From Planctomycetota bacterium (GTDB lineage Bacteria; Planctomycetota; PUPC01; DSUN01), in contig VGYW01000064.1 in assembly GCA_016872875.1 (NCBI GenBank), forward strand, positions 1 through 27,333: a DNA stretch of 27,333 nt, given 5' to 3'. The translations under genes were made by a program, and so were the position numbers. Positions 2,050 to 26,334 of this stretch are shown here, piece by piece; the first letter of the stretch is position 1, and each line of letters opens with the position of its first letter. The notes under the pieces were generated by a model that did not search any database, was not told where the DNA came from, and was given only the letters and a program-made list of their open reading frames with translations.

Positions 2050-4098
2050 ATGGGGCGGCGTTCGGAGGCATGCAGCAGGAAGGCACGCGGGAGGCCGCGC
2101 TCGGCAGGCGTCGCCGCGGCAATGGGCCTGGCACTTCTCCTCTCCACAGGCGCGCTGGGCGGCGAACGGGCCGTGGACCTGACGGACCTGGACCTCGAGC
2201 GCCTGATGCAGGTCCGCATCATCTCCGCGTCGAAGCGGGAGCAGCAGTTGCTGCGGACGCCGGCCGCGGCGTTCGTCATCAGCCAGGAGGACATCCGGCG
2301 GTCCGGGGCGCGGAGCATCCCCGACCTGCTGCGCATGGTGCCCGGCATCCAGGTCGCGCGCATCAACAGCAGCGAGTGGGCCGTGAGCGCGCGCTGGTTC
2401 AACCACAGGTTCGCCAACAAGCTGCTGGTGCTGGTGGACGGGCGGACGGTCTACTCGCCGATGGTGGGCGGCACCTTCTGGGAGGCCCAGAACGTGCCGC
2501 TGGCCGACATCGAGCGGATCGAGGTCATCCGCGGCCCAGGCGGCACGGTCTGGGGCGCCAACGCCGTCAACGGCGTCATCAACATCATCACCAAGCGTGC
2601 CGAGGAGACCCAGGGGGCGCTCCTGACGCTCGGCGCGGGGAGCGAGGAGCGGGCCTTCGGCGGCTTCCGCTACGGCGGCAAGCTCGGCGAGGCCGCCTTC
2701 TACCGCCTCTACGCCGAAGGCTTCGCGCGCGACGGACAGATTGACCGCACGAACGACGACACCGCCGACGAGTGGGGCGCGGGACGCCTCGGCTTCCGGC
2801 TCGACTGGGCCACGACGGAGGCCGACTCGTTCACCGTGCAGGCGGACTTCTACAGGACGCTCGCGCACCACAAGCTCCTGGTGCCCACCCTCGCCCCTCC
2901 CTTCGGCGTGGTGCGGCACGCCGTGGCGGACTTCCACGGCGGCGACATCGTCTTCCGATGGGACCACCGCTTCTCGGAGGACTCGGTGGTCACGGTGCAG
3001 GCCTATCTCGACAAGGCGGACTTCCACGCGCGCCACGTGGGGACGAGCCGCATCCACATCTTCGACGTCGACGCTGTCCACACCTTCCGGGCCTCCGAGC
3101 GCCACCGCATCACCTGGGGCGTCGGCTACCGGAGCACCTGGCAGGCGTTCAATGGCACGGAGCTCGTGAGCTTCGACCCTGACAGGCGGCGCGACGACCT
3201 CTTCAGCGTGTTCTTCCAGGACGAGGTGACGCTCGTGCGCGACCGCCTGTGGCTGACCGCGGGCACGAAGGCCGAGCACAACGACTACACGGGCTACGAG
3301 TTCCAGCCCAGCCTGCGGCTCACCTGGGCGCCCACCGAGCGGCAGACCCTGTGGGCCGCGGCCACGCGCGCCGTCCGCGTGCCGACCCCGGCAGAGACCG
3401 ACGTGCGCATCCTCCAGGAGGCCTTCCCACTGGAGGACGGCACGCCGGCACTCGTCCCCTTCCGGGGCTCGCGCGGCCAGCCGGCCGAGGAGCACATCGC
3501 CTTCGAGCTCGGCTACCGCGCGCAGCTCAACAGCCGGCTGACGCTCGACCTGACGGCCTTCCACAGCCGCTACGACCACCTGTGGACCTCGGAGCCGGAC
3601 GCCCCGTTCCCGGAGGGCGCGCCCGTGCCCCACGTCGTCCTGCCCTTCCGCAGCGACGACCAGGCCAGGGCGTCCACCTGGGGCTTCGAGGCGGCCGCCG
3701 CCTGGCGCGTCCTCGACCACTGGCGCGTCCAGGCCGCCTACTCCTTCCTGAAGCTCCGCTTCATCCCTGAGTCGGACAGTGCCGACCCCGCGAGCGCGAC
3801 AGCCGAGAGGCAGATCCCGCGCCATATCATCTCCCTCCGCTCCTCCCACGAGCTGCCAGGGAACCTCGAGCTCGACCTCTGGGCTCGCTTCGTGGACGCC
3901 CAGCCCGCCTTCGGCGTCCCCAGCTACCTGACCCTCGACGCGCGCCTGTGCTGGAAGCCGCGCCGCGACGTCGAGCTCTTCATCGTCGGGCAGAATCTCC
4001 TCCAGCGGCACCACCGCGAGGGGGGCTCGTCCTTCATCCGCACTGAAGAGACCGAGGTCGAACGCGGCGTCTACCTGGGCGCGCGCCTGCGCTTCTAG
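2050..4098 (+). CDS. TonB-dependent outer-membrane receptor, module 1
   Basis: A 682-residue outer-membrane receptor of the TonB-dependent class. A basic N-terminus and hydrophobic stretch (residues 19-37) look like a signal peptide. A pre-plug segment (about 45-66, with LERLMQV and SKREQ) precedes the plug domain (about 68-183), recognised by FVISQEDIRRSG, LLVLVDGRTVY, IERIEVIRGPGG and NGVINIITK. The rest is beta-barrel, ending in the C-terminal Phe typical of outer-membrane proteins. The transported or sensed ligand is unknown. It is the first gene after a predicted promoter, and YfiR follows after 28 bp, so the two are probably co-transcribed. No FecA-type N-terminal signalling domain and no sigma/anti-sigma pair are present, so any signalling would have to pass through YfiR and the kinase; that is inference. 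Confidence 0.92.
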   Translation: MGRRSEACSRKARGRPRSAGVAAAMGLALLLSTGALGGERAVDLTDLDLERLMQVRIISASKREQQLLRTPAAAFVISQEDIRRSGARSIPDLLRMVPGIQVARINSSEWAVSARWFNHRFANKLLVLVDGRTVYSPMVGGTFWEAQNVPLADIERIEVIRGPGGTVWGANAVNGVINIITKRAEETQGALLTLGAGSEERAFGGFRYGGKLGEAAFYRLYAEGFARDGQIDRTNDDTADEWGAGRLGFRLDWATTEADSFTVQADFYRTLAHHKLLVPTLAPPFGVVRHAVADFHGGDIVFRWDHRFSEDSVVTVQAYLDKADFHARHVGTSRIHIFDVDAVHTFRASERHRITWGVGYRSTWQAFNGTELVSFDPDRRRDDLFSVFFQDEVTLVRDRLWLTAGTKAEHNDYTGYEFQPSLRLTWAPTERQTLWAAATRAVRVPTPAETDVRILQEAFPLEDGTPALVPFRGSRGQPAEEHIAFELGYRAQLNSRLTLDLTAFHSRYDHLWTSEPDAPFPEGAPVPHVVLPFRSDDQARASTWGFEAAAAWRVLDHWRVQAAYSFLKLRFIPESDSADPASATAERQIPRHIISLRSSHELPGNLELDLWARFVDAQPAFGVPSYLTLDARLCWKPRRDVELFIVGQNLLQRHHREGGSSFIRTEETEVERGVYLGARLRF

Positions 4099-4126
4099 GA
4101 GCCCGTCCAAGCCGAGAGGGGAGCGA

Positions 4127-4777
4127 GTGGGGCACGTCGCAGGCCACATCGTGGCGCCCAAGGCAGGCGGCACCCTGGCCGCATGCTCCGTGGCTGCATG
4201 GCTCGCGCTGCTGTGGGCGGGGCGTCTCTGCTTGTGGGCAGGGCGTCTCTGCCCCGCGGCCCACGGAGGCCCCGCCCACGGCGCTGAGCCGCCGACGGCG
4301 CCCGAGTACGAGGTCAAGGCCGCCTTCCTCTTCCACTTCGCAAGCTTCGTCTCCTGGCCGGCAGGGGCGCCCAAGGGCGGGGAAAAGCTCTTCACCATCG
4401 GCATCCTCGGCGACGACCCGTTCGGCAAGGCCCTCGACAGCATAGCCCAGGCCAAGGCGGTCGGGGGCAAGAAGATGGCCGTCCGCCGCTTCCGCGCCGT
4501 CGAGGACTACGCGCCCTGCCACATCCTCTTCATCAGTTCATCCGTCGAGAGCCATCTCCCAGCCATACTCAAGAAGGTGGCCGGCTCCGGCGCGCTCCTC
4601 GTGGGCGACGCCGCGGGCCTCGCGCGGCGGGGGGTTCACATCGGCTTCTACATCGAGGATGACCGCGTGCGATTCGAGGCGAATCCCGCGGCGGCGGAAC
4701 GCGATGGGCTGAAGCTCAGCGCGAAGCTCCTCCGCCTCGCACGCGTCGTGGAGGACGCAGAGCCGAAGAGCCCGTGA
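4127..4777 (+). CDS. YfiR family (DUF4154) periplasmic protein, module 1
   Basis: A 216-residue exported protein of the YfiR/DUF4154 family. In the Pseudomonas YfiBNR system this family is a periplasmic inhibitor of the CHASE8-bearing membrane protein YfiN. The family domain starts near residue 60 with YEVKAAFLFHFASFVSWP and continues through IGILGDDPFG, PCHILFIS, a glycine-rich LLVGD segment and FYIEDDRVRFEANPAAAERDGLKLS to the end. The GTG at 4127 follows GAGAGGGGA. The signal peptide is unusually long (about 53 residues) and contains a 21-bp tandem duplication encoding WAGRLCL-WAGRLC at residues 30-42; a later in-frame start is therefore possible, but I see none better. It lies between the TonB receptor and the CHASE8 kinase, which suits a role as the periplasmic link between them. 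Confidence 0.88.
   Translation: MGHVAGHIVAPKAGGTLAACSVAAWLALLWAGRLCLWAGRLCPAAHGGPAHGAEPPTAPEYEVKAAFLFHFASFVSWPAGAPKGGEKLFTIGILGDDPFGKALDSIAQAKAVGGKKMAVRRFRAVEDYAPCHILFISSSVESHLPAILKKVAGSGALLVGDAAGLARRGVHIGFYIEDDRVRFEANPAAAERDGLKLSAKLLRLARVVEDAEPKSP
4212..4262. repeat. 21-bp tandem duplication and hairpin inside the yfiR1 signal peptide
   Basis: TGTGGGCGGGGCGTCTCTGC (from 4212) is followed 21 bp later by a near copy differing by one base in that stretch. The second copy continues into GCCCCGCGGCCCAC, which can fold back on GTGGGC-GGGGC. The design (AGGCGTC/GCCT-like palindrome) resembles the internal hairpin of the 14178-14321 element. In protein it doubles the WAGRLC motif. Confidence 0.6.
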
Positions 4778-4804
4778 CTCGATGAGGACGTTGGCCAGAA
4801 CCAA

Positions 4805-4880
4805 GGGGGATGATTGGGTGAATGGATGATTGGATGGTTGCCTGACTCCCATCCACCCATCCATTCATCCATTCATCCAA
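4805..4880. repeat. Tetranucleotide hairpin element (copy 2)
   Basis: The left arm of TGGA/TGAA/TGAT units starts with GGGGGATGATTGGG; after a short loop (about TTGCCTGACTCCC) the complementary ATCC/ATTC units run to 4880. The arms would pair over about 30 bp in DNA or RNA. It fills the whole gap between yfiR1 and kinase 1, ending just before the AGGAAGG ribosome binding site at 4882-4888. Confidence 0.8.
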
Positions 4881-4893
4881 TAGGAAGGTTGCC

Positions 4894-7254
4894 TTGCGGT
4901 TCCTGCGTGACATGCCGCTTCGCCTCAAGCTCAGCCTGCTGCTGGCGCTCATGGGCGCCGTGCCGCTGCTCATCGCGTCCGGCATCCTGGTGACGAGCGA
5001 GATCAGGCGGGCGCAGTCGGCCTCGGAGCGCTCGCTGGCCACCCTGGCCGACACGCTGGGCACGGGCGCCGCGGCGGCCCTGGCCTTCAACGACCGGAAG
5101 ACGGCGGAGAGCGACCTCGGCGTGCTGCGCGGGCAGCCGCCCGTCGTCGCCGCGTGCGTCTACGACAAGGCGGGGCGCCCCTTCGCCACCTACCCCGCCG
5201 GCACGCCGGCCGGAACCCTCCCAGCGTCGGCCCCGCAGCCCGGCATCCGCCTGACCGAGGAGGGCTACATGGAACTCGCACGCCCTGTCGTGCTCAACGC
5301 GGAGACGATTGGCACGGTGTTCCTGCGCGCGCACACGCGCGAGGTGCGCGCGCAGGCCCGGGCGGCGCTGGCCACCATCACAGCCGTCCTCGCCGCCATG
5401 CTCCTGGTCTGCGTCGGCGTGTCGCTCCTCCTCCAACGCGTCATCTCCAATCCCATCCTGCGCCTGGCCGAAGCCGCGAGGACCGTGTCCGCACAAGGCG
5501 ACTACGCCATCAGGGTCAGCAAGGCGAGCAACGACGAGCTCGGGGTGCTCTGCGACGGCATCAACGCGATGCTGGCCCAGATACAGAGCCGCGACGCAGA
5601 GCTCGAACGCAGGCGGCAGCAGTTGGAGGCCGCCCTCACCGACGCCCAGGCCGCCAGCCGAGCCAAGAGCGAGTTCCTGGCCAACATGAGCCACGAAATC
5701 CGCACCCCCCTCAACGGCATCATCGGCATGTGCGACCTCCTCGCCAACACCCCCATGACCCCCCAGCAGAGGGAGTTCCTGGACATCGGCCGGAGCTCGG
5801 CCAACGCCCTCCTGGCCACGATCAGCGACATCCTGGACCTCTCGAAGATCGAGGCGGGACGCCTGGAGCTCGAGGCGGTGCCCTTCGACCTCGCCTCGGT
5901 GCTCCACGCGGCGACCGACTCCCTGGCGGCCAGGGCCCGCGGCAAGGGCATCGCGTTCCACTGCCACGCCGAGGCCGGCGTGCCCGCGCTCCTCATCGGC
6001 GACCCCGCACGCCTCCGCCAGGTGCTGGCGAACCTCGTGGACAACGCGGTCAAGTTCACCGACAAGGGCCAGGTGATCGTCCACGTGAGCATCGAGCCGG
6101 AGGGCGGGTCAGATTTCGGATTTGCGATTGCGGATTGCGGATTGAAATCCGAAATCCGAAATCCGAAATCCGAAATCCACGCGACCCTCCACTTCCTCGT
6201 CTCCGACACCGGCACCGGCATCCCGCCGGACAAGCTCGAAAAGGTCTTCGAGAGCTTCACGCAGGCCGACGGCTCGATCACCCGGAAGTACGGCGGCACC
6301 GGCCTCGGCACCACCATCGCAAGGAAGATCGTCGAAGGGATGGGCGGCCGCATCTGGCTCGAAAGCCAGCTCGGCAAGGGCACCGCCGTCCACGCCGTCA
6401 TCCCCTTCCTTCTCCCTTCTCCGGCAGCGGAGCGGGAGTACTACAGGCTGCCAGCCCCCGCCTCGCGGGCTGGCGGGCAAGCGGAGGCGGGCCGTGGCAC
6501 CCTGCGCATCCTCCTGGTGGAGGACAACGAGATGAGCCAGCGGGTGACGGCTGCCCTGCTGCGGCAGCAGGGCCACGCGGTCACGCTCGCCTCCAACGGC
6601 GCCGAGGCCCTGCGACTTCACCAGCCGGACGACTTCGACCTCATCCTGATGGACGTGCAGATGCCGGAGATGGACGGGCTGGCGGCGACGCAACGCATCC
6701 GCGCCCGGGAGGCCGCCAGCGGCAAGCGCACCCCAATCGTCGCCCTCACCGCCCACGCCCTGAAGGACGACCGCGAGCGCTGCCTGGCGGCCGGCATGGA
6801 CGGCTACCTGGCGAAGCCGGCCCGCCGCCAGCACTTGCTCGACGCCATCCAGGCACTCGCCGCAGGGCGCCCCTGTTCCGAGCCCCCGCCCCTCGACGAG
6901 CGCGGGGACGCCGAGCGGCCGGTCCTGGACACCGAGGGCGCCCTCCGCGGCCTGGTGGACGACCGCGAGTTGCTCCGCGACCTCGTGCAAGTCTTCATCA
7001 GCGAGACGCCTGCCCGCCTCGCAGCCGCCCGCGCCGCCTGTGGCAAGGGGGACTGCGAGCGAGTCCTGCGCATCGCCCACACCGTCGCCGGCTCGGCCAG
7101 CGTCGTGTGCGCGGCCCGCATCCACCACGCCGCCCTGGCGCTGGAGTCTGCCGCACGCGAGGGCCAGGCGGACCGCCTCGCCGGCCTCCTGGATGCCGTG
7201 GAGGCCGAGCTGCGGCTCCTGCGGGATACCGTCGAGAGGCAATCCCTTCCCTGA
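4894..7254 (+). CDS. CHASE8-type hybrid histidine kinase (HisKA-HATPase-REC-HPt), module 1
   Basis: A 786-residue inner-membrane sensor kinase. Two membrane segments (about 12-34 and 158-181) flank a periplasmic region resembling the CHASE8 sensor of YfiN ([20 protein letters not shown], residues 61-80, and [12 protein letters not shown], 89-100). HAMP follows (about 182-235), then HisKA with H267 in [12 protein letters not shown] and HATPase_c with N384, DTGTGIP (438-444) and GGTGLG (467-472). The receiver has E543/D544, D587 and K641. A C-terminal HPt has H729 but reads HTVAGSA where HTLKGSA is usual. Residues about 406-429 are a repeat-encoded insert inside the ATPase domain. The TTG at 4894 is chosen because AGGAAGG precedes it and kinase 2 begins with the matching MRILRNM; ATG at 4912 is an alternative. 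No separate output regulator is adjacent. Confidence 0.9.
6112..6178. repeat. Heptamer repeat in frame in kinase 1
   Basis: Left units of GCGATTG/CGGATTG type run into five AAATCC units spaced 7 bp apart; the right part is the reverse complement of the left in kind, so the tract can form a hairpin. It lies inside the HATPase_c domain, between the strand ending [10 protein letters not shown] and the strand [10 protein letters not shown], and is read as [20 protein letters not shown] without breaking the frame. Confidence 0.85.
6450..6474. repeat. Palindrome in the kinase 1 ATPase-receiver linker
   Basis: GCCAGCCC (6450-6457) pairs with GGGCTGGC (6467-6474) around a 9-nt loop. It is read in frame as part of the variable linker between the HATPase and receiver domains (residues about 519-528), where an insertion would be well tolerated. 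Confidence 0.5.
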
Positions 7255-7586
7255 GCGCGTGGCTGGCGCCCTGTGGAGCGCTCTCCGTAGCGCGGCGGCC
7301 ATAGGCGCGCCCGCCAGCGGTTGCGGCCCCCCCCTTAGGCGATCGCTCTCCCGGACGGCCTGGGTGCGGCCGTCCCCCCTCTTCGAGACAAGTGCTTAGG
7401 ACTCCTCGACTTCTGGCCGGCCCCAGTCCGTGGGCAATCAGACGATCGCTTCTCCCTCTCTGGAAGCGATCGCCTGAGGAGCCCGTCGGCACACCCTTTG
7501 CTCGCCGTGGGTGGTTCGTGAAGGAGCGCGCCCACCCAAGCCCACCCACATCAGACCAGGAGCCGGAAGCCCGGCGGCCGCGCGGA
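7255..7586. other. 332-bp intergenic region between the two modules
   Basis: It holds no convincing gene, although the yfiR2 frame stays open upstream to 7392. Its main content is the inverted-repeat element at 7333-7479. No clear promoter for module 2 was found, so module 2 may depend on read-through from module 1 or on a non-canonical promoter. Confidence 0.5.
7333..7479. repeat. 147-bp element with GCGATCGC-containing inverted ends
   Basis: The left end 7333-7351 (CCTTAGGCGATCGCTCTCC) and right end 7462-7479 (reverse complement CCTCAGGCGATCGCTTCC) are nearly the same. A third copy lies inside at 7438-7455 and forms a tight hairpin with the right end. A further perfect hairpin, GGACGGCC / GGCCGTCC, is at 7353-7375. 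The arrangement suggests a small non-autonomous element or a structured RNA between the modules. No T-run marks it as a simple terminator. Confidence 0.55.
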
Positions 7587-8141
7587 ATGGCCGCGGGCCG
7601 CATGGCGGGCCGTCTCGCGCTCCTTGCCGCCGCTGCGATTCCTGCCGCGGCCGCGGACCACTCGGAGCGCGAGTACGCGATCAAGGCCGCCTTTCTCTAT
7701 CACTTCGCAGAGTACGTCACCTGGCTGCCGGGCGCGCCCAAGGGCGCCGACGGGGCGCTCACCATCGGCGTCCTCGGCCCGGACCCCTTTGGCGCCACGC
7801 TCGACGAGGTCGCCGCAACCCGGTCGGCGGCCGACAGGAAGGTCGCCGTCCGCCGCTTCGGCGCCATCGAGGGCATGGAGCCGTGCCACATCCTCTTCGT
7901 GAGCGCATCCGAGGTCGAGCGCCTGGGCACCCTGCTGCGGCGGGCAGCGGAGTCGGGAGCGCTCCTCGTGGCCGACGTGCGCGGCGCCGCGGGCCAGGGC
8001 GCACACATCAACTTCTTCATCGAGAACAACAAGGTACGCTTCGAGATCAACCCGGCCGCCGCGCGGCGGGCCGGCCTCAAGATAAGCTCAAAGCTCCTCC
8101 GCCTCGCGCGCATCGTCGAGCCGCCATCGGGAGGGCAGTGA
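7587..8141 (+). CDS. YfiR family (DUF4154) periplasmic protein, module 2
   Basis: A 184-residue paralogue of the YfiR protein at 4127. A short signal peptide (about residues 1-23, ending in AAAA) leads into the DUF4154 domain: YAIKAAFLYHFAEYVTWLPG, IGVLGPDPFG, PCHILFVSASEVE, LLVADVRG and FFIENNKVRFEINPAAARRAGLKIS. The expected role is a periplasmic regulator of the CHASE8 kinase of this module. The ATG at 7587 is chosen because it gives a normal-length signal peptide; its ribosome site is weak, and ATG at 7602 is a plausible alternative. The gene is followed after one base by the TonB receptor (stop 8139-8141, ATG 8143), so the two are tightly coupled. Here YfiR precedes the receptor, the reverse of module 1. 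Confidence 0.86.
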   Translation: MAAGRMAGRLALLAAAAIPAAAADHSEREYAIKAAFLYHFAEYVTWLPGAPKGADGALTIGVLGPDPFGATLDEVAATRSAADRKVAVRRFGAIEGMEPCHILFVSASEVERLGTLLRRAAESGALLVADVRGAAGQGAHINFFIENNKVRFEINPAAARRAGLKISSKLLRLARIVEPPSGGQ

Positions 8142-8142
8142 A

Positions 8143-10176
8143 ATGGCCGGCCCTCTGATATTTGCCTTCTGCCTGCTCGCGGCGCCGCAGGCAACGGCTG
8201 CTGAACCCGCGAAAAAGGGCTCGCTCGCCTCAGAGTTCGCTCGCATGAGCCTCGACCAGTTGATGAACGTGGAGGTGGACACCGTGTACGCCGCGTCGCG
8301 CCACAAGCAGAAGCTCGCCGACGCGCCCGCCTACGTGACCATCGTCACAGCCGAGGACATCCGCAGGTTCGGCTACCGCACCCTGGCCGACATCCTCCGC
8401 AGCGTGCCCGGCTTCTACACCACCTACGACCGCAACTACCACCACCTGGGCATCCGAGGCTTCAACCGCCCAGGCGACTACGACACCCGCGTGCTCCTCC
8501 TGGTGGACGGCCACCGGCTCAACGACAACATCTACGACTGCCCGCCGATCGGCACCCAGGGGATCGTGGACGCCGGCATCATCGAGCGGGTGGAGGTCAT
8601 CCGCGGGCCGGGCTCGGCCCTCTACGGCAGCAACGCGCTCCTCGGCGTCATCAACGTCGTCACCAGACGCGGCAGGGCCATCGGCGGCGCCGAGCTCGCT
8701 GCCGAGGCCGCAAGCTTTGGCTCCTATAGGGGCAGGCTGACCTTCGGCCAGGCGTTCGCAGACAACTGCGAGATCTTCTTCTCCGCCTCCGCCTACGACT
8801 CCGCCGGGCCGCGGCGCCTCTACTACAAGGAGTACGATGACCCCGCCACGAACCGCGGCATCGCAAGGAGTTGCGATGATGACCGCTACGGCAACCTCTT
8901 CGCCACGCTCTCCTTCGGCGAGTTCACCCTCCAGGCCGCCTACGTCTCACGCGAGAAGGGCATCCCGACCGGGGCCTTCGACACCCGCTTCAACGACCCC
9001 CGCACCCGCACCGTGGACGCACGCGGGTACCTCGACCTCAAGTGGCAGCACGACCTGAGCGACCACACCAACCTCATGGCCCGCCTCTACTACGACTACT
9101 CGGGCTACCGCGGGAGCTACGCCTACGACGACGGCCCGGGCGTGCTGATGACCAAGGAGAGCTCGCGCGACCAGTGGTGGGGCGCCGAGCTGGTCTTCAC
9201 CCACACCTTCGGGAGCCCGTTGCCGGCAACGGGCGCCCCGCCCCTCGGCCCCCACCGGCTCACGTGGGGCGTCGAGTACCGCGACAACTTCCAGCAGGAC
9301 CTCCACGGCCGCCACACCGAGGTCTACCTCCACACACACAACCGCTCGCGCATCTGGGCCGCCTTCATCCAGGACGAGGTCCGCATCCTCCACAACCTCG
9401 CCCTCGTCGCCGGCGTCCGCCACGACCACTACAGCACCTTCGGCGGCTCCACCAACCCCAGGCTCTCCCTCATCTGGCAGCCCTTCGAGGCCACCACCCT
9501 CAAAGCCCTCTACGGCCGCGCCTTCCGCGCACCGAACGCCTACGAGATGTACTACAACGACGACGGCGCCACCCAGAAGGGCAACCCCGACCTCAAGCCG
9601 GAGACCATTGACACAGCCGAGCTCGTCCTCGAGCAGCGCCTCTCCGAACACCTGCGCCTCACCGCCGCCGCCTTCGCCTACAGGATGAAGGACATCATCA
9701 CCCTGGAGGAGGACCCCTCGGACGGGCTGATGGTGTTCCAGAACGGCCGTCGTGCGAGGGCGAAGGGGCTCGAGGCCGAGCTGGCCGGCGCCTGGCCCTG
9801 CGGCCTGCGCGCCAGGGCCAGCTACAGCCTCGCGCGGGCCGAGGACGGCGAGACCGGCCAGCGCCTCGTAAACTCCCCCACCCACCTCGCCAAGCTCAAC
9901 GTCAGCGTGCCGGTGGTCAGGGACAAGTTGTTCGCCAGCCTCGAGCTCCAGTACACCAGCCGCCGCGACACCCTGGCGGGCCGCCACGCCGGCGCATTCT
10001 GGCTCGCCAACTTCACCCTCCACGGCCGCGACCTCCTCAAGGGGCTCGACGCCTCGCTCGGCGTCTACAACCTCTTCGACCGGCGATACCGCGACCCCGG
10101 CTCCCGCGAGCACCGCCAGGACGCCATCGAGCAGGACGGGCGGACCTTCCGCCTTCAGATCATCAAGCGGTTCTGA
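8143..10176 (+). CDS. TonB-dependent outer-membrane receptor, module 2
   Basis: A 677-residue TonB-dependent receptor. Signal peptide about residues 1-20 (LLAAPQATAA), pre-plug segment 36-56 (SLDQLMNVEV, comparable to LERLMQV of the module 1 receptor), plug domain about 58-175 (VTAEDIRRFG, VLLLVDGHRLND, IERVEVIRGPGSALYGSNA, GVINVVTRRG). The barrel contains GNPDLKPET, a common motif of siderophore/vitamin-type receptors, and NLFDRRY, and ends in KRF. GGGAGGG at 8129-8135 is the ribosome binding site. The 20-bp perfect palindrome at 9215-9234 lies in a proline-rich loop (SPLPATGAPPLGP). The ligand is unknown. The sequence differs widely from the module 1 receptor, so the two modules probably sense different compounds. 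Confidence 0.92.
   Translation: MAGPLIFAFCLLAAPQATAAEPAKKGSLASEFARMSLDQLMNVEVDTVYAASRHKQKLADAPAYVTIVTAEDIRRFGYRTLADILRSVPGFYTTYDRNYHHLGIRGFNRPGDYDTRVLLLVDGHRLNDNIYDCPPIGTQGIVDAGIIERVEVIRGPGSALYGSNALLGVINVVTRRGRAIGGAELAAEAASFGSYRGRLTFGQAFADNCEIFFSASAYDSAGPRRLYYKEYDDPATNRGIARSCDDDRYGNLFATLSFGEFTLQAAYVSREKGIPTGAFDTRFNDPRTRTVDARGYLDLKWQHDLSDHTNLMARLYYDYSGYRGSYAYDDGPGVLMTKESSRDQWWGAELVFTHTFGSPLPATGAPPLGPHRLTWGVEYRDNFQQDLHGRHTEVYLHTHNRSRIWAAFIQDEVRILHNLALVAGVRHDHYSTFGGSTNPRLSLIWQPFEATTLKALYGRAFRAPNAYEMYYNDDGATQKGNPDLKPETIDTAELVLEQRLSEHLRLTAAAFAYRMKDIITLEEDPSDGLMVFQNGRRARAKGLEAELAGAWPCGLRARASYSLARAEDGETGQRLVNSPTHLAKLNVSVPVVRDKLFASLELQYTSRRDTLAGRHAGAFWLANFTLHGRDLLKGLDASLGVYNLFDRRYRDPGSREHRQDAIEQDGRTFRLQIIKRF
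9215..9234. repeat. 20-bp perfect palindrome inside the module 2 receptor gene
   Basis: GCCCGTTGCCGGCAACGGGC is its own reverse complement. It encodes part of SPLPATGAP in a loop between two barrel strands, a place where a small inserted palindrome would be tolerated. A related GGTTGCCGGCAAGGG occurs at about 25270, beside the nonamer hairpin upstream of mutS. Confidence 0.7.
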
Positions 10177-10210
10177 GATAGTCTCTTAGTGGCGCAGGGC
10201 CGATGGATAA

Positions 10211-10321
10211 GGGGATGAATGAATGGATGAATGGATGAATGGATGAATGGATGAATGGATGAATGGATGGGTGGATGGCTGTCTGACAATCATCCATTCA
10301 TCCACCCATCCACTCATCCCC
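10211..10321. repeat. Tetranucleotide hairpin element (copy 3)
   Basis: About six GGATGAAT octamers plus GGATGGGT/GGATGGCT form the left arm; after a loop (about GTCTGACAATC) the complementary ATCCATTC/ATCCACCC/ATCC units form the right arm. Ends are GGGGATGA and TCATCCCC. It lies between the module 2 receptor and kinase 2, matching copy 2 in front of kinase 1. The kinase frame stays open through the right arm, which would give a spurious 31-residue extension. Confidence 0.85.
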
Positions 10322-10347
10322 TGGAAGGTCAAGGAAAGGTCCTTGGT

Positions 10348-13131
10348 ATGCGCATCCTGCGGAACATGCACATCAGCACGAAGCTCACGCTGCTCCTGGC
10401 GCTCATGGGCGCGCTCGCCCTCCTGGCGTCGTCGGCGGCCTTCGTGGCCAACGAGGTCAGCTCCATCCGCTCCTCCACGGCCGCCACGCTCTCCGCGCTC
10501 GGCGACGTGGTGGGGGCCAACATGGCGGCGGCCCTGACGTTCAACGACTCCGCGGCGGCCGCGGAGCTCCTGGCCTCGCTGCGCCGGCAGCCCCTCGTCA
10601 CCGCGGCAGGCGTCTACGACCGCTACGGCAGCCTCTTCGCCACCTACCCCAGCCAGCCCGCCCCCGCGCTCCCGCCGGGTCCGCCCACCCACTTCGCGCC
10701 GAAGTTCGACGGCGCGGCCATCGAGGTCGCGCGGCCCATTGACGAGCGCGCGTGCCTGGTCGGCACCATCGTCCTGCGCGCCCAGGCCACACAGGTCCAC
10801 GCCCGCATCCGCCGCGCGCTACTCATCGTGGGCGCGGTCCTCGCCGTGTCCCTCCTCGCCGCGGTCTCGCTCTCCCTCCGCCTCCAACGGCTCATCTCCG
10901 CTCCCATTCTGCGCCTCGCCGGGGCCGCCAGGGCCGTTTCAGCTCAGGGCAACTATGCGATCCGCGTGAAGAAGGAGGGCAACGACGAGATCGGAGAGCT
11001 CTGCGACGGCTTCAACGCCATGCTCGCGCAGATTCAGGCGCGCGACGCCGAGCTCGAACTCAACCGCAAGCGGCTCGAAGAAGCCCTCCGCGACGCCACG
11101 GCGGCAAGCCAGGCCAAGAGCCAGTTCCTCGCCAACATGAGCCACGAGATCCGCACCCCCCTCAACGGCGTCATCGGCATGACGGAGCTCGTCCTCGCCA
11201 CACCACTCACCCGCGAGCAGCGCGAGTACCTCGATATGGGCCGAACCTCCGCCAACGCGCTCCTGGGCATCATCAACGACATCTTGGACTTCTCGAAGAT
11301 CGAGGCCGGCCGCCTCGAGCTCGAAGACATCCCCTTCGACCTCCGCACCGTGGTGGAGGCCACGCTGGACACCCTGGCCGCCAAGGCCCACGGCAAGGGC
11401 ATCGAGCTCGCCTGCCGCATCCCCCCCGATGTCCCCACCGCCCTCATCGGCGACCCCGAACGCCTCCGCCAGGTCCTCAGCAACCTCACCCACAACGCCG
11501 TCAAGTTCACCGAACAGGGCGAGGTCGTCCTCCACGTGGACATGGAACCCGATGGTGGGCCCGATTTCGGATCTGCGATTGCGGATTGCGGATTGAAATC
11601 CGAAATCCGAAATCCGAAATCCCCAATGCACGCAGGGCTGCACTTCCGCGTGTGCGACACCGGCATCGGCATTCCGCCGGAGAAGCTCGACACGATCTTC
11701 GAGAGCTTCACCCAGGCCGACGGCTCGATCACCCGGAAGTACGGCGGCACCGGCCTCGGCACCACCATCGCCAAGCAGATCGTGGAGAAGATGGGCGGCC
11801 GCATCTGGCTCGAAAGCCAGGTCGGCAGGGGAACCACTGCACACGTCGTCCTACGCTTCCCCCTGGCCCCGCCCCAGCCCCAACCCCTCCCCCGACGGCC
11901 AGAGGCCGACCTCACGGGCATCCGCGTCCTGATTGTGGACGACAACGCGACGAATCGGATCATCCTGCGCGAGGTCACTGCGGCCTGGGGCATGGCGCCC
12001 AGCGAGGCCCCAAGCGCCGCAGAAGGGCTCGTCGCCCTCCTCGAAGCCCAGGCCGCGGGCCGCCCCTTCCAGCTCATCCTGCTCGACGCGCACATGCCCG
12101 AAGTGTCGGGCTTCGGCTTCGCCGAGCGCGCCCGCCGCCTGCCAGGCCACGGCCGCGTGCCGATGGTCCTCCTCACCTCCGCGGGAAGCCGGGGCGACGC
12201 CGACCTGTGCGCCCGACTCGGCATCTCAGCCTACCTCATGAAGCCCGTCAAGCAGTCCGAGCTTCACAACACCATCGCCGCAGTCCTCGACCCCCGCTTC
12301 GCCCAGGGGGGCCAGGGCGCCGTCGTCACTCGCCACGCGCTCCGCGAGGCGCGGCGACGCCTCCGCGTCCTCTTCGCCGAGGACAACCCCGTGAACCAGC
12401 GCGTGGGCGCCGCAATCCTCGGAAAGCAGGGGCACTCCGTCCTCCTCGCCGCCAACGGCCGCGAGGCCCTCCGCGCGCTCGAAGGCGACACCTTCGACCT
12501 GGTGCTGATGGACGTCCAGATGCCGGAGATGGACGGCCTGGAGGCGGCTCGGCTCATCCGCGGCCGCGAGCGCGCCAGCGGGGGCCATATCCCCATCGTG
12601 GCCATGACCGCTCACGCCCTCAAGGGCGACCGCGAGCGCTGCCTCGAGGCGGGCATGGACGGCTACATCGCCAAGCCCATCCGCCCCGCCGCCCTCATCG
12701 AAACCATCGAGCGCCTCGCCGCTGGCGCGCCGGATTCTGCACTGAAATCCGAAATCCGAAATCCGAAATCCGAAATGACCCAGTGCCCAGTCTTCGACCA
12801 CGACGCCGCCCTCCAGGCCGTCGGCGGCGACACCGTCCTCCTCCGCGAGGTCACGGACATCTTCATCGAGGACTCGCCCAAGCGGCTCGAAGAGGCGCGT
12901 TCCGCCCTCGGGCGCGGCGACGCCGAGGCCCTCGCCCGCGCCGCCCACACCCTCAAGGGCGCCGCGGGCGCCGTCTGCGCCTGCCGCGTCCAGAGCGCCG
13001 CGCGCGACCTCGAGGCCGCCGCACGCGCCGGCCCAAACGGCCCCTGCGCCCATCTCCTCGAATCCCTCCAGGCTCAGTTCGACATGTTCCGAACCGCCGT
13101 CGAGAGAGAGGCTGCCGGCGCGCAGCGCTGA
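10348..13131 (+). CDS. CHASE8-type hybrid histidine kinase (HisKA-HATPase-REC-REC-HPt), module 2
   Basis: A 927-residue paralogue of kinase 1 with one extra receiver. Membrane segments about 12-34 and 158-179 flank a CHASE8-like periplasmic domain (AALTFNDSAAAAELLASLRR, 61-80). HAMP follows, then HisKA with H266 in [12 protein letters not shown] and HATPase_c with N383, DTGIGIP (437-443) and GGTGLG (466-471). Receiver 1 has D531/D532, D580 and K632; receiver 2 has E678/D679, D722 and K776. The HPt has H867 in the standard AHTLKGAA. Two repeat-encoded inserts are present: about 406-426 in the ATPase domain, at the same place as in kinase 1, and about 794-810 between receiver 2 and HPt. The ATG at 10348 is chosen because upstream codons are repeat and because it aligns with kinase 1. 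The phosphorelay would need an output regulator encoded elsewhere. Confidence 0.92.
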   Translation: MRILRNMHISTKLTLLLALMGALALLASSAAFVANEVSSIRSSTAATLSALGDVVGANMAAALTFNDSAAAAELLASLRRQPLVTAAGVYDRYGSLFATYPSQPAPALPPGPPTHFAPKFDGAAIEVARPIDERACLVGTIVLRAQATQVHARIRRALLIVGAVLAVSLLAAVSLSLRLQRLISAPILRLAGAARAVSAQGNYAIRVKKEGNDEIGELCDGFNAMLAQIQARDAELELNRKRLEEALRDATAASQAKSQFLANMSHEIRTPLNGVIGMTELVLATPLTREQREYLDMGRTSANALLGIINDILDFSKIEAGRLELEDIPFDLRTVVEATLDTLAAKAHGKGIELACRIPPDVPTALIGDPERLRQVLSNLTHNAVKFTEQGEVVLHVDMEPDGGPDFGSAIADCGLKSEIRNPKSPMHAGLHFRVCDTGIGIPPEKLDTIFESFTQADGSITRKYGGTGLGTTIAKQIVEKMGGRIWLESQVGRGTTAHVVLRFPLAPPQPQPLPRRPEADLTGIRVLIVDDNATNRIILREVTAAWGMAPSEAPSAAEGLVALLEAQAAGRPFQLILLDAHMPEVSGFGFAERARRLPGHGRVPMVLLTSAGSRGDADLCARLGISAYLMKPVKQSELHNTIAAVLDPRFAQGGQGAVVTRHALREARRRLRVLFAEDNPVNQRVGAAILGKQGHSVLLAANGREALRALEGDTFDLVLMDVQMPEMDGLEAARLIRGRERASGGHIPIVAMTAHALKGDRERCLEAGMDGYIAKPIRPAALIETIERLAAGAPDSALKSEIRNPKSEMTQCPVFDHDAALQAVGGDTVLLREVTDIFIEDSPKRLEEARSALGRGDAEALARAAHTLKGAAGAVCACRVQSAARDLEAAARAGPNGPCAHLLESLQAQFDMFRTAVEREAAGAQR
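11563..11622. repeat. Heptamer repeat in frame in kinase 2, ATPase domain
   Basis: This is the same tract as at 6112-6178 (GCGATTG, CGGATTG twice, then AAATCC units every 7 bp), but with four AAATCC units instead of five. It is read as [15 protein letters not shown] and sits at the matching place in the HATPase_c domain. The sequence around it differs more between the kinases than the repeat does. Confidence 0.85.
12731..12775. repeat. Second heptamer repeat in kinase 2, receiver-HPt linker
   Basis: CGGATTCTGCACTG is followed by AAATCCG units read as [12 protein letters not shown]. It separates receiver 2 from the HPt domain. Kinase 1 has no such tract at this linker, so this copy was gained or lost after the duplication. 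Confidence 0.8.
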
Positions 13132-15425: not shown

Positions 15426-15482
15426 TGGCATATCCTTTCTGTAGGAGGCGTGCCAGCCAGAGAGGCAGACGCGCCCGTGTCG

Positions 15483-15593
15483 AAGGGACCACAGGGACCA
15501 CAGGGACCCAAGGGACCTAAGTGACAACCCCTGATTGTACTCTCCCCTGGGTCCCTGTGGTCCCTGCGGTCCCTGTGGTCCCTTGGGTCCCTT
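15483..15593. repeat. Nonamer (GGGACCACA) hairpin inside the sugar operon
   Basis: The left arm has about four 9-bp units (GGGACCACA and variants); after a loop of about 28 nt (15520-15547) the right arm has the complementary TGTGGTCCC units. The arms would form a stem of about 35 bp. It lies in the gap between the acetyltransferase and aminotransferase genes and is transcribed with them. Confidence 0.85.
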
Positions 15594-15640
15594 CACACCT
15601 GCGCGGCGCGGCGCTCCGCCGCCAGACCCGCGGGGCCTCC

Positions 15641-16225
15641 TCAGTCGCCGAGCCGTCTCACCACGCCGTTCTCCAGGGCGTACTCCGTGCCCTGCCTCTC
15701 GCACCTTGCGCGGCCGCCGACGAACTCGAGCTTCTCCCCGCACTCGCACATCCAGCCGTGCTGGCGGGCGGGGACGCCGTAGACGAGAGCGTAGGGGGGC
15801 ACGTTTTTGGTGACCACGGAGCCGGCGCCGATGAAGGCGTGCTCGCCGATGGTGATGCCGCACACCACTGTGGCGTTGGCGCCAATCGTGGCACCGCGCT
15901 TCACGAGGGTGGGCAGAAAGCCGGTCTCGCGGTCGCGCGGGAACGCGCTACGCGGGTTCATCACGTTCGTGAACACCATCGAGGGGCCGCAGAAGACGTC
16001 GTCCTCGAGGGTCACTTTCTCGTAGATCGAGACGTTGTTTTGCACCTTGCAGTTGTTCCCGATCTTCACGTGTGCTCCGACGAAGGCGTTTTGGCCGAGG
16101 ACGCACCGCTCGCCGATCTCGGCCCCCGCGCACACGTGGGCGAAGTGCCAGACCTTCGTCCCCTTGCCGATCTTGCACGGCTGGTCAACCACCGCGGTCG
16201 GGTGGACGAAGAACTCATCGCCCAT
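15641..16225 (-). CDS. WbpD-like N-acetyltransferase (left-handed beta-helix)
   Basis: A 194-residue hexapeptide-repeat acyltransferase, most like UDP-2-acetamido-3-amino-2,3-dideoxyglucuronate N-acetyltransferase, which uses acetyl-CoA. The left-handed helix repeats run from about 8 to 150 ([72 protein letters not shown]) and end in the family motif VPARQHGWM. The tail has CEC (160-162) and CERQ (175-178), like a zinc ribbon in which the fourth Cys has become Gln. ATG 16225 has GAGGAA 7 nt upstream. It overlaps the galE stop by 11 bp, so translation is probably coupled. An upstream in-frame extension into galE is not credible. Confidence 0.88.
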
Positions 16226-17225
16226 GCTCGGTTCCTCTTGCCTCCCATCGCCAGGCATCGGCCACAATCGCGTCGAGGGAGGCGTGGCGCGGCGCCCAGC
16301 CCAGCACGCTCTGGGCGCGACTTGGGTCGGCCACAAGGACGGGCGCGTCGCCCGAGCGCCGGCCCTCCTCAATCACCTTTGCCTTGAGGCCCGTGATGCG
16401 CTCCGAGGCGGCGATGACCTCGCGGACGGAGTAGCCGCGGCCCACCCCGAGGTTGAGCGCGGTCGTGGCGGCGCCAGCGGCCAGGGCCTTCACGGCCAAC
16501 ACATGGGCCTCGGCCAGGTCGCTCACGTGGATGTAGTCGCGGATGCAACTGCCGTCGGGCGTCGGGTAGTCGGTGCCGAACACCTTCACGCACGCCCGCT
16601 TGCCCGCCAGGTGCTGGAGCACGATGGGGATGAGGTGGGTCTCGGGGTCGTGGCGCTCCCCTGCCCTGCCCGCCGGGTCGGCGCCCGCGGCGTTGAAATA
16701 GCGCAGGGCAATCGAGCGGATGCCGTAGGCCGCATCGAAGTCCCGGAGCACCCGCTCGAAGGCGGCCTTGGTGAAACCGTAGGGGCTGATGGGATTCAGG
16801 GCATGTTCCTCGCGGATTGGCGTCCGCTCAGGCGGCCCGTAGACTGCGGCTGACGATGAGAAGACGAACGCCTTGACGCCGTTGCGTCGCGCGGTCGCGA
16901 GCAGGTTGAGGCCGCCCGCGATGTTCACGGCGTAGCACTTCTCGGGGTCCTCGAAGGAGTGAGGCACATTGGCCAGCGCCGCGAAGTGCAGGATGGCCTG
17001 GAACGGCCCGAACTCGAACGCGCGGGCGACGTCGGCGGGGTTGCGGATGTCGCCTTCGACAATCTCTGCCCCCTCCCCCACTGCATCGCGGTAGCCTGCC
17101 TCGAAGTTGTCGAAGACCACGGCCTCAAGTCCGGCGTCGAGGAGGGCTAGAACCACGTGGCTGCCCACGTAGCCGCCGCCGCCTGTAACAAGCACTCTCG
17201 TGTGAGCCAAAGCGTTCCTCTCCAT
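16215..17225 (-). CDS. galE: UDP-glucose 4-epimerase
   Basis: A 336-residue short-chain dehydrogenase-type epimerase interconverting UDP-glucose and UDP-galactose (or the N-acetyl forms). The NAD-binding TGGGGYVG motif is at residues 14-21, the catalytic serine in FSSSAAVYG (122-130) and the YxxxK pair is Y149/K153; [12 protein letters not shown] and [15 protein letters not shown] are GalE signatures. Length matches the family (about 338). ATG 17225 has no good ribosome site, whereas TTG 17210 has GGAGAGG about 6 nt before it and gives [11 protein letters not shown]; that later start is likely the real one. It is the first gene of the operon with the acetyltransferase and aminotransferase and has the strongest promoter in the window. 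The role is probably in surface glycan precursors. Confidence 0.93.
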
Positions 17226-17287
17226 GCAACGCAACTCGCACTCCACACTCCAGCACGCCGCTACGGCGCGCATCGAAGACCGAGGAG

Positions 17288-19092: not shown

Positions 19093-19111
19093 TCAGATGC
19101 CTTCCACACGC

Positions 19112-19207
19112 GGGGATGAATGGATGGGTGGATGAGTGGATGAATGAAAGACAAGGGCGCTTCTGATTCTTACATTCATCCAATCATCCATTCATCCATC
19201 CATCCCC
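19112..19207. repeat. Tetranucleotide hairpin element (copy 4)
   Basis: The left arm, GGGGATGAATGG..., and the right arm, ...ATCCATCCATCCCC, flank a loop that includes TCTGATTCTTACATTC, which shares TCTTACATTCATCC with copy 1. Its right arm overlaps the last 5 codons and stop of aroA, encoding MGMDG and the TGA. Confidence 0.82.
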
Positions 19208-22457: not shown

Positions 22458-22486
22458 ACCCTACAGCGTGCCAGTCCCACAGTCAA
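22458..22486 (-). promoter_or_regulatory. Possible weak promoter for the ATPase-DUF4276 pair
   Basis: On the minus strand TTGACT (22486-22481), overlapping the mutS stop codon, 17-bp spacer and a poor TAGGGT (22463-22458). The -35 is good and the -10 is weak, so this is tentative; read-through from mutS is the alternative. Confidence 0.3.
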
Positions 22487-25197: not shown

Positions 25198-25204
25198 ACT
25201 CCCC

Positions 25205-25233
25205 AATATAGCCGGCGCCCCATCCCTGTGCAA
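25205..25233 (-). promoter_or_regulatory. Predicted promoter for mutS
   Basis: On the minus strand TTGCAC (25233-25228), 17-bp spacer, TATATT (25210-25205). The -10 lies 7 bp before the annotated ATG, with GGGGAG between. Confidence 0.55.
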
Positions 25234-25279: not shown

Positions 25280-25408
25280 AAGGGACGACAGGGACCACAG
25301 GGACTCCAGGGACCAAAGGGACTTGACACGGGAGCCGTCTCCCGCACAATAAAGGCGGGCCACCTTGGGTCTTGTCCCTGTGGTCCCTGTGGTCCCTGTC
25401 GTCCCTTC
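25280..25408. repeat. Nonamer hairpin with an internal promoter, between mutS and the four-helix gene
   Basis: The left arm is GGGAC(G/C)ACA-type units (25280-25322) and the right arm the complementary TCCCTGTGG units (25373-25408). The loop of about 50 nt contains the TTGACA/CACAAT promoter for the four-helix gene. Divergent genes flank it on both sides. Confidence 0.8.
25323..25350 (+). promoter_or_regulatory. Promoter in the hairpin loop, for the four-helix gene
   Basis: TTGACA (25323-25328), 16-bp spacer, CACAAT (25345-25350). The spacer contains a perfect inverted repeat, CGGGAG-ccgt-CTCCCG, which could be an operator. The right hairpin arm would fall in the 5' leader of the mRNA. Confidence 0.5.
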
Positions 25409-25432
25409 TTCCCTTCGTCAGGGGGCGCCGCA

Positions 25433-26068
25433 ATGTCCCCCGGCTTCATCCCTCCCCACGGCGGCTACAAGAGCCTGCTGTCCTACCAGAAAGCCGAGGT
25501 CATCTTCGACGGCACCGTCTACTTTTGCAGGCGGTTCCTCGGCAAACGCGACCGCACCTATGATCAGATGATCCAGGGCGCGCGGTCGGGCAAACAGAAC
25601 ATCATCGAGGCCAGCCAGATTTCCGGCACCTCCAAGCAGGCGGAGATCGACCTCCTCAACTGGGCGCGCGCCAGCCTCGAGGAACTCCTCGCCGACTACC
25701 GCGACTTCCTCCGCGCCCGCGGCATCGAGGAATGGCCCAAGAACCACCCCTACGCCCGGCGGCTGGCCGCCCTGTGCCGCAAGCCCGGAGCCAACTACGA
25801 GACCTTCAAGAAGGGCATCGAGCACCCAGACCCAGCCATCTGCACCAACGTGATGATCGGCCTGATCAAAGTGGCGAAGCTGCTCCTCGACCGCCAGCTC
25901 GCGCGCCTGGAGAAGGACTTCATCGAGCAAGGCGGCATACGCGAGCGCATGACCCGGGCGCGCCTCGAACACCGCGACAAGGCCATGGGCCGGCAGCCCA
26001 ACCGCGGCGAAGCCAAGGGACCACAGGGACCTCAGGGACCACAGCGACCCCAGCGTCCACCCGCATGA
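25433..26068 (+). CDS. Four-helix-bundle suffix domain protein with repeat-encoded GPQ tail
   Basis: A 211-residue protein of the four-helix-bundle suffix family (related in fold to the 23S intervening-sequence/Avd-type four-helix proteins). Recognisable parts are SYQKAEVIFDGTVYFCRRFL (17-36), MIQGARSGKQNIIEASQ (46-62), the helix EIDLLNWARASLEELLADYRDF and CTNVMIGLIKVAKLLLDRQLARLE (137-160). Function is not known; related proteins bind nucleic acid or partner with other factors. ATG 25433 is chosen because upstream codons are repeat. Residues 195-211 ([17 protein letters not shown]) are encoded by the nonamer repeat and give a collagen-like Gly-Pro-Gln tail. The 3' third is duplicated downstream. 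Confidence 0.82.
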   Translation: MSPGFIPPHGGYKSLLSYQKAEVIFDGTVYFCRRFLGKRDRTYDQMIQGARSGKQNIIEASQISGTSKQAEIDLLNWARASLEELLADYRDFLRARGIEEWPKNHPYARRLAALCRKPGANYETFKKGIEHPDPAICTNVMIGLIKVAKLLLDRQLARLEKDFIEQGGIRERMTRARLEHRDKAMGRQPNRGEAKGPQGPQGPQRPQRPPA

Positions 26069-26334
26069 CGGCGCTTGTCGCGGTTTCTGCGCCCGTTGTT
26101 CGCCTCCCTGCTCTGCCCCATGGCCCCACCCATTGTCGCCGCGCCGCCTTGTGCCCCGCGCATGCTTTCCCCCCTTGCCCCTTCGGTCCCTGTGGTCCCT
26201 GTTGGCCCTGTGGTCCCTTTCCTCTCACGCTGGCGCCGAAGCCAGCGCCGCGCCACGGCAACCGATAGGCGCTCCACACCGCGCGTCAGCTCCACCCCGC
26301 TGTGAATCCCGTATGGTGTCCCCTCAGCGCCCTC
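25891..26334. repeat. Tandem duplication, copy 1 (includes the 3' end of the four-helix gene)
   Basis: This segment starts at CCGCCAGCTCGCGCGCCTGG and covers the last 59 codons of the four-helix gene, about 270 bp of downstream DNA with a nonamer inverted-repeat pair (arms about 26015-26054 and 26184-26219), and a tail ending near CGTATGGTGTC. It recurs from 26335 at an offset of 444 bp. Confidence 0.88.

Follow-up and report, generated by a model that had tools for sequence, protein, structure and literature searches.

Two TonB-dependent receptor, YfiR and CHASE8 kinase modules in a planctomycete, and a receptor motif that may connect the outer membrane to a phosphorelay

How might a receptor in the outer membrane pass its state to a kinase in the inner membrane? 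The question is raised by a 27,333-nucleotide stretch of DNA from a Planctomycetota bacterium (assembly GCA_016872875.1, contig VGYW01000064.1; here called the window), whose plus strand carries two tandem modules, each made up of a TonB-dependent receptor (TBDR), a YfiR-like protein and a CHASE8-HAMP hybrid histidine kinase (HK), as judged by Pfam. The order of genes is TBDR-YfiR-HK in the first module and YfiR-TBDR-HK in the second. An earlier note, made from the letters alone, had described these six genes and proposed that the receptor stands in for YfiB of the YfiBNR (TpbB) system, that a phosphorelay replaces the GGDEF output of that system, and that no sigma or anti-sigma factor is involved. 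All six genes are where the note had placed them, and both modules were confirmed (Table 1): the two YfiR proteins match PF13689 (DUF4154; cut-off 24.9 bits) and the kinase N-termini match CHASE8 (cut-off 27 bits), while the Plug and barrel matches of the receptors lie well above their cut-offs.

The three-gene neighbourhood recurs in other genomes. A scan with a 32-sequence YfiR alignment yielded at least 560 confirmed relatives, of which the best 80 loci were analysed, with TBDR and CHASE8 genes called by hidden Markov models (HMMs) built for the analysis and a distance limit of 4.5 kb. Within this distance of YfiR there is a TBDR at 69 of the 80 loci, a CHASE8 protein at 76, and both at 66; in the outer flanks, 509 kb of sequence beyond 4.5 kb of YfiR, there was no TBDR hit. 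The commonest gene order is TBDR-YfiR-kinase. A count by eye gives at least 14 phylum-level labels, as deposited, among the loci with the trio. Across 25 whole genomes, also by eye, 35 of the 46 DUF4154 matches have a CHASE8 partner and 35 of the 43 CHASE8 matches a DUF4154 partner; one genome (G022) has a single Plug match, which adjoins YfiR, and three others (G006, G010 and G017) have only two Plug matches each. The trio is thus a real and widespread system.

What distinguishes the receptors of this system is a segment near the mature N-terminus, for which a position-specific scoring matrix (PSSM) gives the consensus DLKEMSLEELMNIEVT, and which continues into the TonB box. When 30 of the 61 usable receptors served for training, the PSSM scored 6 or more in 29 of the 31 held-out receptors and in 2 of 55 controls, the latter being usable receptors located away from YfiR in 25 of the same genomes; plugs with too short an N-terminus were left out, namely 4 of the 65 in the case set and 2 of the 57 in the control set, which comes from 58 control loci. 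A first scan with a strict anchor had covered 33 case and 18 control loci, and an HMM-placed plug was used instead. When the PSSM was built from 47 main-clade (TOL_0244-like) receptors, it detected the motif in all 16 of the remaining YfiR-linked receptors and, again, in 2 of 55 controls, the grouping being that of the receptor tree with two receptors (L006 and L035) assigned by eye. Motif identity is 0.43 between the two receptor groups and 0.44 within the main clade, as against 0.18 to controls, whereas between-group identity of the plug (0.31) and of the barrel (0.16) does not differ from the control levels of 0.29 and 0.17. Since the motif keeps its identity while plug and barrel are at background, this segment is held constant. 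A claim that the YfiR-linked receptors are polyphyletic was dropped: the approximately unbiased (AU) test against a single clade (p 1e-9) was driven by three controls nested in the main clade (L161, L227 and L228), without which p rose to 0.71, and an independent-pairs test offered too few supported pairs.

The motif also tracks YfiR from genome to genome. A 50-position profile of the N-terminal segment (27 rows) was searched together with DUF4154 in the same 546 genomes, namely 199 Pseudomonadota, 149 Acidobacteriota and 198 Bacteroidota, the phylum being inferred from the label of the genome at the centre of each set. A motif genome is one with a profile match starting at model position 7 or lower, and DUF4154 was scored as present at an E-value of 0.001 or better, which takes in some partial, weak matches. 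YfiR was detected in 36 of 38 motif genomes among the Pseudomonadota, 26 of 27 among the Acidobacteriota and 14 of 18 among the Bacteroidota, compared with 8 of 161, 6 of 122 and 12 of 180 genomes without the motif; in the pooled table 76 of 83 motif genomes have YfiR and 7 do not, against 26 of 463 others, 437 of which do not. The start rule removed seven genomes (G048, G105, G253, G286, G320, G394 and G523), and adding these back raises the motif genomes to 90, of which 77 have YfiR and 13 lack it. Both the YfiR-linked motif at the TonB box and its tracking of YfiR by genome appear to be new here. In one pseudomonadotal genome (G127, locus L243) seven DUF4154 matches and eight motif receptors amount to a lineage expansion of the system. 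Three Bacteroidota loci (L263, L264 and L265) have SLEDL- or SLKSL-type receptor motifs in genomes without detectable DUF4154, and in a fourth (L266) a 220-residue open reading frame (ORF) at 2868-3530 on the minus strand takes the place expected of YfiR, with a motif TBDR on one side and a CHASE8 kinase on the other. That the four motif-bearing Bacteroidota genomes hide a divergent YfiR was considered and is not supported (hhalign E 0.2, tested for L266 only).

The idea of the earlier note that the receptor stands in the position of YfiB is supported. In contrast to YfiBNR, the third gene of both window modules is a TBDR and not YfiB, an OmpA/Pal-type lipoprotein, and one strict pattern detected no OmpA-motif ORF in the 80 loci. 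Conversely, the eight Pseudomonadota genomes that have YfiR without a motif-TBDR match were inspected one by one: four resemble classical YfiBNR, in that the 7-12 kb retrieved contain YfiR, a CHASE8-GGDEF protein and an OmpA-motif ORF and gave no TBDR hit; a fifth has CHASE8-GGDEF but no ORF with the OmpA pattern, a sixth YfiR alone, and two (L245 and L247) have a TBDR with a weaker N-terminal motif, seen by eye. The absence of the OmpA pattern from the trio loci, together with the four YfiBNR-like genomes, makes YfiB-type and receptor-type inputs look mutually exclusive in this sample, at least by this strict pattern.

The YfiR proteins themselves are in keeping with a change of partner. An AlphaFold2 (AF2) model of YfiR2 (pLDDT 89.4) has as its top Foldseek match in the PDB the YfiR of Pseudomonas aeruginosa (4zhu; E 1.2e-8, TMt 0.78), and it resembles substrate-binding proteins as well, such as 6k1x of R. 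marinus. Scores of 21.5 and 25.3 bits for YfiR1 and YfiR2 against the NCBIfam YfiR equivalog NF053586 (cut-off 85) place them in the superfamily but not among the equivalogs. The likeness to YfiBNR extends from the YfiR fold to the periplasmic CHASE8 domain with its AAVVF-like motif and to the hydrophobic residues of the YfiN site. In an alignment of 82 sequences, numbered on P. aeruginosa YfiR, this site has I or V at 151 (79 of 82), V or I at 160 (76), F at 162 (63) and L at 183 (65). Of 78 CHASE8 regions, 62 show the AAVVF-like pattern, though one or more of these matches arose by chance, and the corresponding YfiR-binding patch of the window kinases reads AAALAFND in HK1 and AAALTFND in HK2. 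Unlike the YfiN site, the YfiB face, whose residues were taken from PMC4887326, is remodelled: H177 is replaced by S in 80 of 82 sequences, P178 by S or A in all 82, and R60 by E or D in 63, with S and T at this position in the window. Of the cysteines, Cys110 is kept in 72 sequences, but there is no such conservation of the disulfide residues Cys71, Cys145 and Cys152. A kinase-facing side that is largely conserved and an outer-membrane-facing side that is partly re-specified match what would be predicted for a change of partner.

Natural fusions, found through the lengths of open frames at DUF4154 matches in the genome searches and confirmed by Pfam, tie YfiR to both neighbours. Four Bacteroidota loci (L257-L260) encode YfiR-HisKA-HATPase proteins, three of them with PAS, each directly beside a TBDR and with what looks by eye like a long coiled coil and a membrane segment between the YfiR and kinase parts; in three of the adjoining receptors the N-terminal segment could be detected, at only 17 bits in L260, the exception being L259. 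A YfiR-HK-REC fusion (L241) has no TBDR in the fetched 10 kb, and a protein search with a chimeric query scored no YfiR-CHASE8-HK fusion among 7991 candidates. A different fusion, at L261 (4326-5633, minus strand), is a 435-residue protein with CarboxypepD_reg, TonB_C and DUF4154 domains (51.5, 43.1 and 29.7 bits); this TonB-like protein with a YfiR part lies immediately upstream of a TBDR that has the motif. The predicted kinase fusions show YfiR at work with kinases, and the TonB_C fusion suggests that YfiR sits at the TonB box of the receptor; both kinds of fusion are new here.

Taken with the gene content, the conservation of the trio and of the YfiN site, and the link of the motif to YfiR, these fusions lead us to consider it probable that the trio is a three-storey envelope unit, in which the receptor has replaced YfiB as the partner of YfiR and its N-terminal motif gates the relay from YfiR to the kinase. 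The storeys would be the TBDR in the outer membrane, YfiR in the periplasm and the CHASE8 hybrid kinase in the inner membrane. YfiR would set the state of the kinase by docking on its CHASE8 domain, using the site known from the YfiN interaction. In BtuB, FhuA and FecA the TBDR N-terminus is established to move when the ligand binds; here ligand, TonB or both would move the flexible N-terminus so that SLEELM and the TonB box become available to YfiR, and YfiR bound by the motif would alter its engagement of the CHASE8 kinase. Phosphate would then pass along H-D-(D)-H within the kinase to a response regulator, in relatives often an enzyme of c-di-GMP metabolism. Direct contact between TBDR and YfiR, gating by ligand and the sign of the effect are what we infer. 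When the three proteins are separate, YfiR might be sequestered as it is by YfiB, whereas its covalent attachment to the kinase in the fusions leaves no room for this.

Several observations weigh against this proposal. The motif went undetected in two of the 31 held-out YfiR-linked receptors (L026 and L029), and in the AF2 model of TBDR1, whose mature part has a pLDDT of 88.6, the motif is a helix (L49-M53) followed by a strand at low confidence (block pLDDT 33 and 45). No TBDR is nearby at 11 of the 80 YfiR loci, though two of these have less than 400 bp of upstream sequence, and 9 of 54 motif TBDRs from the Pseudomonadota are not within 4.5 kb of YfiR. The seven motif genomes in which YfiR was undetected imply that the motif may have another use, and because the genomes are related, p-values for the association overstate its independence. 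Within the proposed YfiN site, E163 is kept in only 47 of the 82 sequences. Since the fusions tether YfiR to the kinase, simple sequestration cannot apply in them, and the AU test does not reject common descent of all the YfiR-linked receptors.

An alternative is that YfiR is a soluble ligand-binding protein and that the TBDR does nothing but import the ligand, under the same regulon and with no contact to YfiR. PfeA/PfeRS is a two-component system linked to a TBDR, whose kinase is thought to sense the ligand in the periplasm; as in the trio, receptor and kinase genes act together, although no YfiR is found there. The existence of such systems favours this alternative, and so do the resemblance of the YfiR2 model to substrate-binding proteins and the binding of L-Trp or vitamin B6 by P. 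aeruginosa YfiR, reported in PMC4887326. It would leave unexplained, however, why the receptor motif is linked to YfiR and why TonB_C is fused to it, and we regard it as unlikely while granting it real weight.

The TonB_C fusion can also be turned to another account, that the motif is a special TonB box or a docking site for a dedicated TonB paralogue, or else an inherited mark of one old receptor lineage, with its link to YfiR arising indirectly from the shared cluster. The overlap of the motif with the TonB box region (NIEVTSVSK) and the four of 18 Bacteroidota motif genomes in which YfiR was undetected agree with this account, as does the single clade of YfiR-linked barrels that the AU test permits. 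Barrels of the two receptor groups, however, are no more alike than controls while the motif is as alike between the groups as within the main clade, so that something holds the motif constant; nor was a recurring gene for TonB recognised among the neighbours of the trio, the neighbour clusters not having been searched for TonB. We find this account rather doubtful. That the genes are merely hitch-hiking together, with no common signalling function, is scarcely credible, for although co-localisation alone is never proof, the spread of the trio over phylum labels, the genome-level association of motif and YfiR, the fusions, and the two motif-bearing receptor types beside paralogous cores in the window all speak against it.

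Under the three-storey proposal the next question is where the signal goes. Apart from the trio itself, the one large family of neighbours recognised as recurring in the 80 loci is that of response regulators and kinases (49 loci). By strand and position, though checked only in part, the remaining large clusters resemble shadow ORFs of the trio, except for a cluster of 7 loci with no assigned family. Linked regulators were taken as the same-strand REC proteins close downstream of the CHASE8 gene, 40 in all from 31 of 73 loci, leaving out downstream REC proteins with a kinase core (14 loci). Among the 40 there are 16 with GGDEF, 12 with EAL and 3 with HD_5, the remainder being REC with PAS or REC alone, and the ten families listed for them include no DNA-binding family. 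By their predicted domains, the linked regulators with a recognised output are of the c-di-GMP type, a further point that is new here. Two loci moreover join TBDR and YfiR directly to a CHASE8 cyclase (CHASE8-HAMP-GGDEF-EAL in L048, CHASE8-GGDEF in L247), and these, with the c-di-GMP-type regulators, imply that c-di-GMP remains a frequent output. The replacement of GGDEF by a phosphorelay therefore holds in part: the window CHASE8 proteins differ from YfiN in having HisKA-HATPase-REC-(REC)-Hpt where GGDEF would be, but c-di-GMP is not simply replaced. Of the ORFs beyond position 13131 of the window, seven were compared with Pfam, and none of these seven is a response regulator.

Parts of this picture were already known. 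The model names of three NCBIfam families, two of them bearing locus tags of Thalassolituus oleivorans, link a receptor, a YfiR-like protein and a kinase: NF053591 (TOL_0243 YfiR-like; cut-off 125) is passed by YfiR1 (145.1) and YfiR2 (155.4); NF053592 (HK_near_YfiR_like, a kinase N-terminal domain; cut-off 194) is passed by HK2 (197.4), with HK1 just under (193.1); and NF053590 (TOL_0244 receptor; cut-off 645) gives 643.3 for TBDR1, just under, and 194.7 for TBDR2, which departs from the NCBIfam trio in belonging to a different receptor family. The gene neighbourhood is thus known to the NCBI curators, and the YfiR-kinase half is in print (Malone 2012, PMC3375315). The passages of that paper on distant homologues, which align Opitutus, Acidobacteria, Geobacter and others, state that far from Pseudomonas YfiB is nearly always lacking and that the output of YfiN is in many instances a sensor kinase, Hpt or GGDEF-EAL; the YfiR-YfiN[PAS] pairs described there resemble the trio in combining YfiR and CHASE8/PAS with a kinase output. 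They differ in that TonB has no occurrence in the main text, and these passages identify no input receptor. As judged by titles and abstract openings, no description of a link between TBDR and YfiR was found in the open literature, nor, within the same scope, were a receptor-driven pathway with a connector motif, the apparent exclusion of YfiB, or the fusions.

A bolder formulation, whose chances we put a little short of even, is that these receptors are a third class of TonB-dependent transducer, in which a short N-terminal address peptide, SLEELM with the TonB box, would be retained on receptors whose barrels are as dissimilar as those of unrelated receptors. Acting as a plug-in connector, it would bind YfiR once the receptor is loaded and thereby switch CHASE8 kinases or cyclases, with no need of STN, FecR or sigma factors. 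In transducers of the FecA/FpvA type, an STN domain acts with a FecR anti-sigma factor and an extracytoplasmic function (ECF) sigma factor. The likeness lies in a TBDR N-terminus proposed to pass a signal inwards, the difference in the proposed route through YfiR and a kinase. Neither TBDR1 nor TBDR2 has an STN match (Pfam, up to E=1), in support of the earlier note; the only large recurrent neighbours recognised in the 80 loci were REC and HK proteins, no dedicated sigma or anti-sigma search having been made. In this formulation the ligand would dictate how the barrels differ, and connector and YfiR-kinase core would remain unchanged, as the two window modules suggest.

The presence of the trio in many phyla points to a widespread, little-studied signal route across the whole bacterial envelope. 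If the proposal is correct, bacteria of many phyla would possess a modular connection that leads directly from a receptor in the outer membrane to a phosphorelay in the cytoplasm and, in many cases, on to c-di-GMP, and the SLEELM segment would be a sequence tag for signalling receptors among TBDRs of unassigned role. It would also suggest what substitutes for YfiB in the YfiR-YfiN-like pairs that lack it, which the distant-homologue passages of PMC3375315 describe as common far from Pseudomonas.

Table 1. Coordinates of the two modules and their repeat elements in the window
Feature	Position	Strand	Evidence and remarks
TBDR1, TOL_0244-type receptor	2050..4098	+	Pfam Plug 73.8 bits, barrel 110.9
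TBDR1 N-terminal 16-residue motif DLTDLDLERLMQVRII, at and before the TonB box	2176..2223	+	PSSM 23.1; candidate YfiR-contact segment
YfiR1, YfiR/HmsC-like periplasmic protein	4127..4777	+	PF13689 144.2 bits; DUF4154 at 4307-4744
Octamer inverted repeat between YfiR1 and HK1	4806..4879	.	Repeat I1; -46.2 kcal/mol, z -3.85
HK1, CHASE8-HAMP-HisKA-HATPase-REC-Hpt	4894..7254, TTG start	+	CHASE8 57.7 bits at 5023-5325
In-frame AAATCCG heptamer-repeat insertion, HK1 HATPase domain	6112..6178	+	Repeat scan, alignment
YfiR2	7602..8141 (ORF opens 7392)	+	PF13689 141.3 bits; DUF4154 at 7674-8111
TBDR2, receptor type unlike TBDR1	8143..10176	+	Pfam Plug 78.8, barrel 186.0 bits
TBDR2 N-terminal motif EFARMSLDQLMNVEVD	8233..8280	+	PSSM 25.0; 23.1 with PSSM from TOL_0244-like receptors only
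Octamer array with inverted arms between TBDR2 and HK2	10197..10321	.	Repeats D2 and I1; -54.7 kcal/mol, z -3.20
HK2, CHASE8-HAMP-HisKA-HATPase-REC-REC-Hpt	about 10348..13131 (ORF 10255-13131)	+	CHASE8 54.4 bits at 10471-10776
Heptamer-repeat insertion at the equivalent site, HK2 HATPase domain	11563..11629	+	Repeat scan, alignment

The start of YfiR2 follows a matching database protein (P0007) that begins at the equivalent position, and HK2 probably starts where the table places it because the codons upstream run through an octamer repeat. Motifs that we take to be those of the phospho-residues, AHTLKGAA among them, were recognised in the kinase translations. Within the window YfiR1 and YfiR2 are 57% identical, HK1 and HK2 53%, and the two receptors 28%, so the YfiR-kinase core is paralogous and the receptors are of different types. 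Each YfiR and HK pair is mutually closer than either is to any member of the 80 loci, where the nearest relatives of TBDR1 and TBDR2 have 45% and 49% identity; metagenomic proteins up to 66% identical are nearer to YfiR2 than YfiR1 is, and the closest YfiR relatives are mostly metagenome proteins, including some from planctomycete and verrucomicrobial metagenome-assembled genomes. These identities fit a duplication of the YfiR-kinase core, to which different motif-bearing receptor types would have become attached.

The heptamer insertions add 22 residues at one hairpin of the HATPase domain in both kinases and are absent from 12 aligned relatives. The two copies are 93% alike, more than other aligned blocks of the HK1 and HK2 genes (71-77%), and this excess points to gene conversion or to more than one insertion of the heptamer element. 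A third, more divergent copy precedes the Hpt domain of HK2 (12740-12772). The octamer repeats GGATGAAT and ATTCATCC form inverted intergenic arrays, at 517-805 and 19106-19205 in addition to the two in Table 1, and the three of the four that were folded give stable RNA hairpins (z -3.2 to -8.2); in each module such an array separates the receptor and YfiR genes from the kinase.

Downstream, on the minus strand, lie a hexapeptide transferase (15641-16327), an NAD-dependent epimerase (16215-17228) and a five-domain MutS (22483-25230), with no evident relation to the modules. Nonamer arrays of GGGACCACA occur in opposite orientations at 15474-15605, 25280-25428 and 26006-26743, and a direct repeat of 275 nt, 92% alike, is found at 26016 and 26469.

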